Of a stretch of 64,000 nt of DNA, positions 11,756 through 46,155 are shown piece after piece. Position 1 is the stretch's first letter, and each line of letters starts with the position of its first letter. Position numbers and translations under genes: made by a program. Source of the DNA: Aeromonas popoffii (lineage in GTDB: Bacteria; Pseudomonadota; Gammaproteobacteria; Enterobacterales; Aeromonadaceae); the NCBI RefSeq assembly GCF_000820025.1, contig NZ_CDBI01000047.1, positions 62,001-126,000 of the forward strand, given 5' to 3'. Under the pieces are notes generated by a model, which had not been told where the DNA came from, did not search any database, and was given only the letters and a program-made list of their open reading frames with translations.

Positions 11756-11843
11756 ATTCGCAGCCTTTGAAACTGTGTTCAACAATCGTGTGGTGTCCGA
11801 CAGAAGATCGGATAGCGACACGGCCTGATAATTGAGGTTGTCC

Positions 11844-44389: not shown

Positions 44390-45064
44390 ATGAATCTGAC
44401 CCCTGCTCAGCACCAGACGGCGCTGGTGCGTCTCTCGTTGTTCCACATCCTGATCATTGCCAGCAGCAACTATCTGGTGCAGCTGCCGATTACCATCTTT
44501 GGCTTCCACACCACCTGGGGTGCCTTCAGCTTCCCGTTCATCTTTCTGGCCACCGATCTGACGGTGCGGATTTTCGGTGTCGGTCTGGCCCGCAAGATCA
44601 TCCAGACCGTGATGCTGCCTGCGCTGGCTGTTTCCTATGTGCTCTCCGTGCTGTTCTTCGAGGGCAGTTATCAGGGCATGGGCAATCTGGCGGAGTTTAA
44701 CCTGTTTGTGGCTCGCATCGCGCTGGCCAGCTTTATGGCCTATCTGGTGGGCCAGTTTATGGACGTGGTGGTATTCAACCGCCTGCGGCGGCTCAGGGCC
44801 TGGTGGGTGGCACCCGCCGCCTCGACCCTGTTTGGCAACCTGGTGGATACCATCGCCTTCTTCAGCATCGCCTTCTGGCGTAGCACGGATCCCTTCATGG
44901 CCGAGCACTGGGTCGAGATCGCAACCGTGGACTATGTGTTCAAGTTGCTGATAAGCCTTGGTCTGTTTGTGCCTCTCTACGGCGTCTTACTGCGTTATCT
45001 CAGCAGCAAGCTGGTGGGTGAGGCCGGATTGGCCGGCCTGCAAGCGGCGACGCGCCAAGCCTGA
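44390..45064 (+). CDS. yhhQ: Queuosine precursor transporter
   Basis: A 224-residue multi-pass membrane protein of the YhhQ/DUF165 family that imports preQ0/preQ1 for queuosine tRNA modification. Conserved: FGFHTTWGAFSFPFIFLATDLTVRIFG and RLRAWWVAPAASTLFGNLVDTIAFFSIAFW, about six membrane helices. The upstream preQ1 riboswitch independently supports the substrate. Start ATG 44390, with the AAAGG Shine-Dalgarno inside the aptamer. Monocistronic with terminator at 45069. Confidence 0.95.
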   Translation: MNLTPAQHQTALVRLSLFHILIIASSNYLVQLPITIFGFHTTWGAFSFPFIFLATDLTVRIFGVGLARKIIQTVMLPALAVSYVLSVLFFEGSYQGMGNLAEFNLFVARIALASFMAYLVGQFMDVVVFNRLRRLRAWWVAPAASTLFGNLVDTIAFFSIAFWRSTDPFMAEHWVEIATVDYVFKLLISLGLFVPLYGVLLRYLSSKLVGEAGLAGLQAATRQA

Positions 45065-45068
45065 CGCA

Positions 45069-45100
45069 ATTGACCATCCCCCGGGATGGTCAATTTTTTT
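45069..45100 (+). terminator. yhhQ terminator
   Basis: ATTGACCATCCC (45069-45080) pairs with GGGATGGTCAAT (45083-45094) over CC and is followed by seven T. Confidence 0.94.
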
Positions 45101-45120: not shown

Positions 45121-45149
45121 TTGCTTAGTTAAATGAGAATGATTATTGT
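45121..45149 (+). promoter_or_regulatory. Fur-regulated ryhB promoter
   Basis: TTGCTT (45121-45126) and TATTGT (45144-45149) are spaced 17 bases apart. Across the spacer and -10, TGAGAATGATTATTG (45134-45148) agrees with the Fur 7-1-7 motif TGATAATnATTATCA at 12 of 15 positions. Iron repression is inferred. Confidence 0.7.
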
Positions 45150-45155
45150 TAACTT

Positions 45156-45267
45156 GTTTTCCGGGAAAGACTTCATTCGTTCCAACGTGATGGACTTCTT
45201 GTGAAGGCACGACATTGCTCACATTGCTTCCAGTTATAGGGCCAGTTCTTCTGGCCCTCTTTTTTTG
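45156..45267 (+). ncRNA. ryhB: RyhB iron-responsive small RNA
   Basis: The stretch contains ACATTGCTCACATTGCTTCC (45212-45231), identical to the conserved target-pairing core of E. coli RyhB, with the flanking CACG and CAG also shared. It is flanked by a Fur-type promoter upstream and a strong terminator (GGGCCAG 45239-45245, CTGGCCC 45251-45257, T-run) downstream. RyhB uses Hfq to repress mRNAs of iron-rich proteins when iron is scarce. The 5' end (about 45156) is estimated from the promoter. No coding frame is present. Confidence 0.88.
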
Positions 45268-45334: not shown

Positions 45335-45820
45335 TTACTCGATATCGAGCGCCTCAGGGGAGAGGATCACCCCCGTGGTATCGGCGTAGAGGTGGTCATC
45401 GGGCAGGAAGGTGACGCCACCGAAGTTGACCGGCAGATCCGTCTCCCCCACGTCCTTGCTGTCGGCGCCCACCGGAATGGCAGCCAGTGCCTGAATGCCG
45501 ATATCCAGATCCTCCAGGATGTCGACTTCGCGCACGCAGCCGTAGCAGACGATGCCTTCCCACTCGTTCTCGGCTGCTGTAGTGGCAATTTCGCTATCGA
45601 TCAGGGCACGGCGCATGGAGCCACCGCCATCGATCAGCAGCACGCGGCCGACGCCGTTCTCTTTAACGAGCTCACGGATCAGGCCATTCGATTCGAAGCA
45701 TTTGACTGTGGTGATGACGCCGCCGAAAGAGGCACGGCCGCCGAAGGAGCAGAGCATGGGTTCGAGCACATCCACCATGTCCTGATAGATGTCGCACAGT
45801 TCTGAAGTGTTGTATTCCAT
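45335..45820 (-). CDS. rraA: Ribonuclease E activity regulator RraA
   Basis: A 161-residue trimeric ring protein that binds RNase E and inhibits RNA turnover. Characteristic: [48 protein letters not shown] (glycine loop, about 64-84), and [16 protein letters not shown] at the end. Start ATG 45820 ([10 protein letters not shown]) is the conserved N-terminus; the frame is open upstream to 45934. Neighbouring an RNase E-dependent sRNA gene is suggestive but not proof of linkage. Confidence 0.95.
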
Positions 45821-45966: not shown

Positions 45967-46155
45967 GTGCTGATCCGTCCTAAGTTGATCCTGAACACAG
46001 TGCTGGCGGCCAGCGAGGTGAACCGCAACGTCAACAACATCCGCGACATCGCCCAGGAGGCGGGTCTGATGGCGGAGGAAAATGCCACATCCAGCCATGG
46101 CTTGACCGAGCAGGCCAAGCTGCTCAATCAGGCGGTGGCTAGGTATCGGGTCTAG
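45967..46155 (+). pseudogene. Remnant of a methyl-accepting chemotaxis protein C-terminus
   Basis: About 62 codons, of which the last 50 (AASEVNRNVNNIRDIAQEAG, then LMAEENATSSHGLTEQAKLL and NQAVARYRV) have the heptad pattern and AEEN/LxxxAxxL ending of a chemoreceptor signalling domain. Upstream in this frame lies a stop at 45925, and no membrane, HAMP or hairpin-tip segment is present. The GTG at 45967 has no good Shine-Dalgarno. It is best read as a decayed mcp left behind a terminator. Confidence 0.62.

Follow-up and report, generated by a model that had tools for sequence, protein, structure and literature searches.

A conserved ryhB gene in Aeromonas popoffii with sodB and sdhC as likely targets

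Introduction

Does the intergenic stretch at 45121-45267 of the Aeromonas popoffii window (the whole 64,000-nucleotide stretch of DNA analysed here, in whose coordinates positions are given) encode RyhB, a well-known small RNA of iron-starved bacteria, and if so, which mRNAs would it regulate and how should its long 5' part be read? E. coli RyhB is 90 nt long, pairs with sodB at the start codon and pairs with the sdh mRNA at sdhD, and Vibrio RyhB exceeds 200 nt.

In Aeromonas itself, the available part of one report names RyhB, from annotation, among the shared ncRNAs of A. salmonicida (PMC8780938), and the 5' part and core of the RNA described here are both present in an A. salmonicida contig. 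The accessible text of that report names the RNA and gives no promoter, structure or targets. In three other Aeromonas papers, as far as their accessible text goes, the name RyhB is confined to reference lists, and no description of a RyhB site in Aeromonas sodB or sdhC was found in the accessible text of the open-access literature searched. The AvrA sRNA of A. veronii, given as 253 nt in the accessible text of PMC6517841, was considered as a possible RyhB and rejected on its primers and its length; none of the six avrA knockout primers, which come from another strain, had an exact match of its first or last 16 bases in the window or in the 3-kb ryhB loci compared.

Results

Identity and extent of the RNA

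The Rfam RyhB model identifies the locus on the plus strand with 68.9 bits against a gathering cut-off of 55, and in the search of the 64-kb window this match covers the full model at an E-value of 8.6e-11. The features of the locus are as follows.

45121-45149, plus strand: ryhB promoter, with -35 TTGCTT (45121-45126), a 17-nt spacer and -10 TATTGT (45144-45149)
45135-45153, no strand assigned: Fur-like box over the promoter, best window match to a 19-base consensus
45156, plus strand: predicted transcription start (G), from promoter spacing
45156-45208, plus strand: predicted 5' hairpin (SL1 equivalent), closing where the pairing core starts; outer stem 90.6% paired
45203-45264, plus strand: RyhB RNA, RF00057, model positions 1-67
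45207-45231, plus strand: pairing core GCACGACATTGCTCACATTGCTTCC, complementary to the sodB and sdhC leaders, with the 19-base CATTGCTCACATTGCTTCC inside
45238-45267, plus strand: Rho-independent terminator, a predicted stem at 45238-45258 followed by a T run

The first-pass annotation had proposed a RyhB RNA of about 110 bases that shares a 20-base core with E. coli and ends at a Rho-independent terminator. The Rfam score bears out the identity, the terminator scan returned the stem and T run listed above, and the predicted RNA, from 45156 to about 45264, measures about 109 nt. The shared core proved longer than claimed, since identity to E. coli extends over 33 bases (45202-45234) at 97-100% in the three matches listed. 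The ryhB region was matched in 5373 of 5426 E. coli genomes, and in one E. coli record the matching region lies between yhhY and yhhX. The 19 core bases CATTGCTCACATTGCTTCC are exact in 36/36 Aeromonas Rfam matches and in 25/27 matches of the sister genus g3.

Promoter and Fur-like box

The 61 Aeromonadaceae loci that hold the exact core all fit the expression TTGnnn-17 nt-TAnnnT-6 nt-G. These loci are what a filter for the exact 19-base core retained from 63 family matches, two second copies in g3 (L065 and L066) being dropped. The expression was written after inspection of the loci and includes the start G, so that it describes conservation and carries no significance value. We assign the -35 and -10 elements on account of this conservation, as the ryhB promoter was not among the predictions of a generic promoter scan of the window. 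The shared promoter, with a G at the position expected in every locus, supports 45156 as the predicted start and agrees with the start and Fur-type promoter of the first-pass annotation.

A predicted Fur box directly upstream of ryhB is indicated by consensus match and by conservation. Against a 19-base Fur consensus, 45135-45153 matches at 14 of 19 positions on the plus strand and 15 of 19 on the minus strand, the top place in the 64 kb, and no site in the window matches the 19-mer with three or fewer mismatches. Scored against a 15-base version of this consensus, the box reaches 11, tied with two other places in the window. The pattern TGANAATNATTAT, allowed one mismatch, has a single match in the window, at the Fur-like box and with no mismatches; 0.15 matches would be expected by chance, and 13 of 100 shuffles held at least one. 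The Fur-like box AATGAGAATGATTATT also lies upstream of E. coli ryhB. Control of Aeromonas ryhB by iron and Fur is thus presumed from the box.

Distribution of RyhB

The A. popoffii genome holds a single RyhB copy over the Rfam cut-off. Eight other listed matches, at 17-23 bits against the cut-off of 55, were rejected as extra copies. Across Aeromonadaceae, 59 of 75 genomes have a match: 36/37 in Aeromonas, where each of the 36 has a single match (E ≤ 0.01) and the one miss is in an 80% complete genome, and 23/23 in g3. The Rfam search returned no match in the genera g2 (n=1), g4 (n=3) and g5 (n=11), and among the 67 good-quality genomes of the family nine are without a match. A scan of the 15 g2, g4 and g5 genomes with a 22-base core, allowing up to three mismatches, gave one match only, with three mismatches, in the genome G069, and its printed context holds no Fur box or terminator by eye.

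Several variants were seen alongside these counts. Four g3 genomes (G046, G048, G049 and G056) carry a second match (L063-L066), which in G049 and G056 exceeds the cut-off, and one g3 ryhB locus (L068) has a small tandem duplication within the pairing core, CATTGCTCACATTGCTCACATTGCTTCC. In another family of the order, RyhB-like pairs lie a few hundred bases apart in G075 (L269 and L275) and G100 (L273 and L277), the G100 stretches being partly masked. In a short RyhB-like sequence (L272, genome G079) the core is limited to its first 17 bases and the end is terminator-like; this sequence falls below the cut-off, at an Rfam E of 0.02.

sdhC as a likely target

In Aeromonas sdhC, a segment running from ATGGAGC to CCGTGA across the ribosome-binding and start region is complementary to most of the core. 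In the A. popoffii genome the predicted hybridisation energy is -24.9 kcal/mol, a value reached or bettered by 12 of 375 background genes and by 3 of 300 shuffled cores. The pairing was displayed for four Aeromonas loci, and the other leaders shown keep the segment. A search of 13 g3 genomes gave 12 sdhC leaders, 10 of which keep the extended pairing; nine of these lie at -21.5 to -26.3 kcal/mol, and L305 is weak at -19.4 (38/200 shuffled cores). In two further g3 leaders (L303 and L311) a different site scores best. Between Aeromonas and g3 the pairing is kept despite base changes and small insertions. The g2 genome, where RyhB was not detected, lacks the pairing (-15.8 kcal/mol, with 92/200 shuffled cores as low). 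No sdhC-type gene was matched in the 13 g4 and g5 genomes searched for it (2 and 11, respectively), some of which are incomplete. Overall, sdhC is a likely RyhB target with a site that looks conserved.

Hybridisation energy on its own was rejected as a target test. For a background of 375 gene starts, taken from the window and from 400 kb of the genome, the mean is -18.2 and the best value -30.7 kcal/mol; by eye, the eight top-scoring background genes looked like noise. The sodB energy in the same genome is -18.8 kcal/mol, a value that 150/375 background genes and 53/300 shuffled cores reach, and sodA, a presumed non-target, does better at -20.5 kcal/mol (90/375 and 28/300). Because energies are this noisy, and that of sodB is ordinary, the case for the targets rests on comparison between genomes.

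sodB as a likely target with a displaced site

We obtained sodB leaders from 34 of the 37 Aeromonas genomes and from 17 of the 23 g3 genomes. The heptamer GCAATGT, complementary to the core, is present in 33/34 Aeromonas leaders at -49 to -54, the remaining one reading GTAATGTC, and in 15/17 g3 leaders at -48 to -55. Taken together, 48 of 51 sodB leaders from the two RyhB-carrying genera hold the heptamer about 50 nt before the start codon. The same heptamer is found in none of the 12 sodB leaders from the genera without a detected RyhB (one from g2, two from g4 and nine from g5) and in none of three second SOD genes of g3. Similarly, a run of at least eight bases complementary to the 25-base core occurs in 34/34 Aeromonas and 15/17 g3 sodB leaders, in 0/12 leaders of g2, g4 and g5, and in 0/24 sodA-type leaders of Aeromonas. 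The eight-base threshold was set after the data had been seen, and a pattern was used to choose the start codons; visual reading of the sodA-type starts covered just the 20 shown.

The position of the site differs across the order. In an order-wide sample of 295 genomes, the leader-type sodB site was found in 22, of which 21 are among the 23 genomes of this family and one lies elsewhere, and the start-codon type, GCAATGTC spanning the ATG, was found in 13, none of them Aeromonadaceae. Enteric-type sodB sites span the start codon. From this sample we picked by hand a panel of 30 further genomes of the order, five of which have a RyhB match over the Rfam cut-off. A genus was counted as carrying RyhB when at least one of its genomes had an Rfam match with E < 0.001, and the enteric genomes found by pattern were left out. 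Among the six RyhB genera so defined, 14 of 15 sodB leaders have a run of at least eight, at varying positions, the exception (G089) reaching six. Among the 12 genera without RyhB, 0/15 leaders have such a run. With the family included, a sodB leader with a run of at least eight was found in 8/8 RyhB genera and in 0/15 other genera, although genera are not independent. One genome goes against the rule: G079, whose short RyhB-like sequence was described above, has no sodB site.

The conserved element could instead be kept in the sodB leader for another reason, as a protein site or as part of an mRNA structure. The ordinary hybridisation energy of sodB in its own genome, weaker than that of sodA, would fit this explanation, as would the conservation, within Aeromonas, of the leader around GCAATGTC too. 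The element is, however, the clearest match by eye, besides the Shine-Dalgarno sequence and start codon, between the otherwise different leaders of the two genera; it is missing where RyhB is undetected; and other RyhB families have their run of at least eight complementary bases elsewhere in the sodB leader. We therefore regard a role separate from RyhB as unlikely, if still a serious competitor. On the comparative evidence, sodB is a likely RyhB target whose predicted site looks conserved and lies at a position unlike that of E. coli.

The 5' part: hairpin or seed

The part of the RNA from start to core differs widely in sequence and length between Aeromonas and g3. Many single folds nevertheless close a hairpin in which the base pairs the 5' end of the RNA with GAAGGC at the start of the core. 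In alignment A1, comprising the 36 distinct rows minus L040, L050, L067 and L071 (which have very long 5' parts), the 10-pair outer stem is paired in 90.6% of cells over 32 distinct sequences, a level reached by 1 of 500 shuffles. Control stems slid by one to three columns were 33-63% paired; the outer stem had been picked out manually in single folds before it was counted, a choice that favours it over the slid versions.

Measures of covariation are mixed. The covariation score of the outer stem was matched by 1 of 500 shuffles, and two-sided changes occur in 11 cells, where shuffles average 6.4 (4/500 as high). Just two pairs have a two-sided change, which is no excess (483/500 shuffles as high), and further pair types number 12 against 10.3 in shuffles (52/500 as high). 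RNAalifold, run on A1, reported four other pairs and not the SL1 stem. In the window's own RNA the SL1 fold is nearly tied with an alternative (-30.8 versus -31.1), and its pair probability is about 0.47.

In E. coli, according to the accessible part of PMC4231740, both targets tested, sodB and shiA, depend on a stable SL1, and SL1 acts mainly through stability. We read the 5' extension as an SL1 because its outer stem is kept despite sequence change and because E. coli RyhB needs a stable SL1; it is probably better seen as a structural hairpin than as a new seed.

The first-pass annotation had drawn additional targets from the divergent 5' part, a suggestion that finds no support here, as the sequence varies, the closing stem is kept and the E. 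coli SL1 is structural. A second seed region giving extra, Aeromonas-specific targets nevertheless has some points in its favour. The block from GTTCCAAC to TTCTTGTGAAGGC is nearly invariant within most Aeromonas; a degenerate pattern of the 5' block plus core hit 21 contigs in the named collection, every one of them titled Aeromonas; and in E. coli the SL1 base change A30G has an effect on sodB beyond folding, in the accessible text of PMC4231740. G029, G009, G027 and the sister genus, however, have an extension of different sequence that still retains the outer stem, and the chiefly stabilising role of SL1 in the same report also speaks against a seed. We consider a second seed improbable.

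That the RNA has a dual function and also encodes a small peptide is very improbable: a very short frame, GTGATGGACTTCTTGTGA, does lie inside the 5' part, but it has four to five codons, shows no clear ribosome-binding site by eye and is not retained in L010, L013, L014 and L025, and the peptide was rejected. Least credible of all is a silent relic, as the 36 Aeromonas loci preserve both promoter and core and also display a terminator-like stem and a T run.

Neighbouring genes

The genes and terminator-like sites on either side of ryhB are as follows.

44390-45064, plus strand: yhhQ, queuosine precursor transporter, upstream of ryhB (NF008406, 374.7 bits)
45068-45095: terminator-like site after yhhQ (terminator scan)
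45314-45299: terminator-like site of rraA (terminator scan)
45335-45820, minus strand: rraA, convergent neighbour (TIGR02998, 275 bits)

Within about 1.5 kb, yhhQ lies upstream of ryhB in 35/36 Aeromonas and 15/17 g3 loci, and rraA lies downstream in 34/36 Aeromonas loci versus 0/17 g3 loci checked; these counts exclude the longer duplicates L061 and L062 and a further set of g3 loci. The synteny that the first-pass annotation proposed to compare thus holds across Aeromonas, and its assignment of rraA as the neighbour stands. The link it suggested, RraA being an inhibitor of the RNase E that carries out RyhB-mediated decay, is less secure, with the adjacency seen in none of the 17 g3 loci. Because the adjacency is found in Aeromonas alone as far as seen, and not in g3, it need not be functional, and the rraA link looks incidental.

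Two other features were noted in the window. A 62-aa open frame beside rraA (45967-46152, plus strand) has no NCBIfam match, and similar sequence is present in L028 and L061. An L31 ribosomal protein leader (RF03157, 61.6 bits) lies at 11787-11838 on the plus strand.

Discussion

We conclude with high confidence that 45121-45267 holds an Aeromonas ryhB gene, with a predicted order of hairpin, core and terminator and with sdhC and sodB as likely targets. The identity of the RNA, its promoter, its conservation and its complementarity are read directly from the sequence, and from these features we infer the target status of sodB and sdhC. This RyhB is ordinary, well conserved and already named in Aeromonas.

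Much of the locus resembles E. coli ryhB. The core is nearly identical, and the predicted order of 5' hairpin, core and terminator is that of E. coli SL1-SL3 in the accessible part of PMC4231740. In contrast, the Aeromonas RNA is longer and has a predicted 5' hairpin of other sequence, and its gene is flanked by yhhQ and rraA where E. coli has yhhY and yhhX. Its predicted sodB site lies near -50, whereas that of E. coli is at the start codon, and its predicted sdh site is at sdhC instead of sdhD. Of the relatives described elsewhere, Shewanella oneidensis has sodB under RyhB control and sdhA reported as a non-target (PMC5826389, in the part available). The accessible text of PMC4114697 has V. 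cholerae RyhB reaching sodB through other regions of the sRNA and already treats site turnover as plausible.

We propose the following model. When iron is replete, Fur with iron would repress the ryhB promoter. Under iron limitation the gene would yield a transcript of about 109 nt, running from 45156 to the terminator, in which the SL1 5' hairpin and the 3' terminator hairpin would flank the core. Presumably together with Hfq, the core would pair with mRNAs that encode dispensable iron proteins and would presumably lower their expression. On sdhC, pairing would mask the Shine-Dalgarno sequence and start region. On sodB, pairing about 50 nt upstream would make mRNA decay, or interference with an upstream ribosome-loading step, likelier than cover of the start codon.

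A broader reading, on which we are evenly divided, is that sodB stayed a target while its site repeatedly changed place: at the start codon in enterics, at about -50 in Aeromonadaceae and elsewhere in other families. Aeromonas sodB would then be silenced outside the ribosome footprint, unlike E. coli sodB, and sdhC would be blocked at the ribosome-binding site.

The genera g4 and g5 are without a detected RyhB, sodB site or sdhC-type gene; the regulator and part of its regulon may be missing together there. Overall, sodB appears to be retained as a target although its site shifts, and where RyhB was not detected the sodB site is missing as well. While the RNA itself is ordinary, the moved sodB site and the comparative pattern are the more useful part, offering a natural test of the distance from the start codon at which an sRNA can act and of the persistence of sRNA targets.
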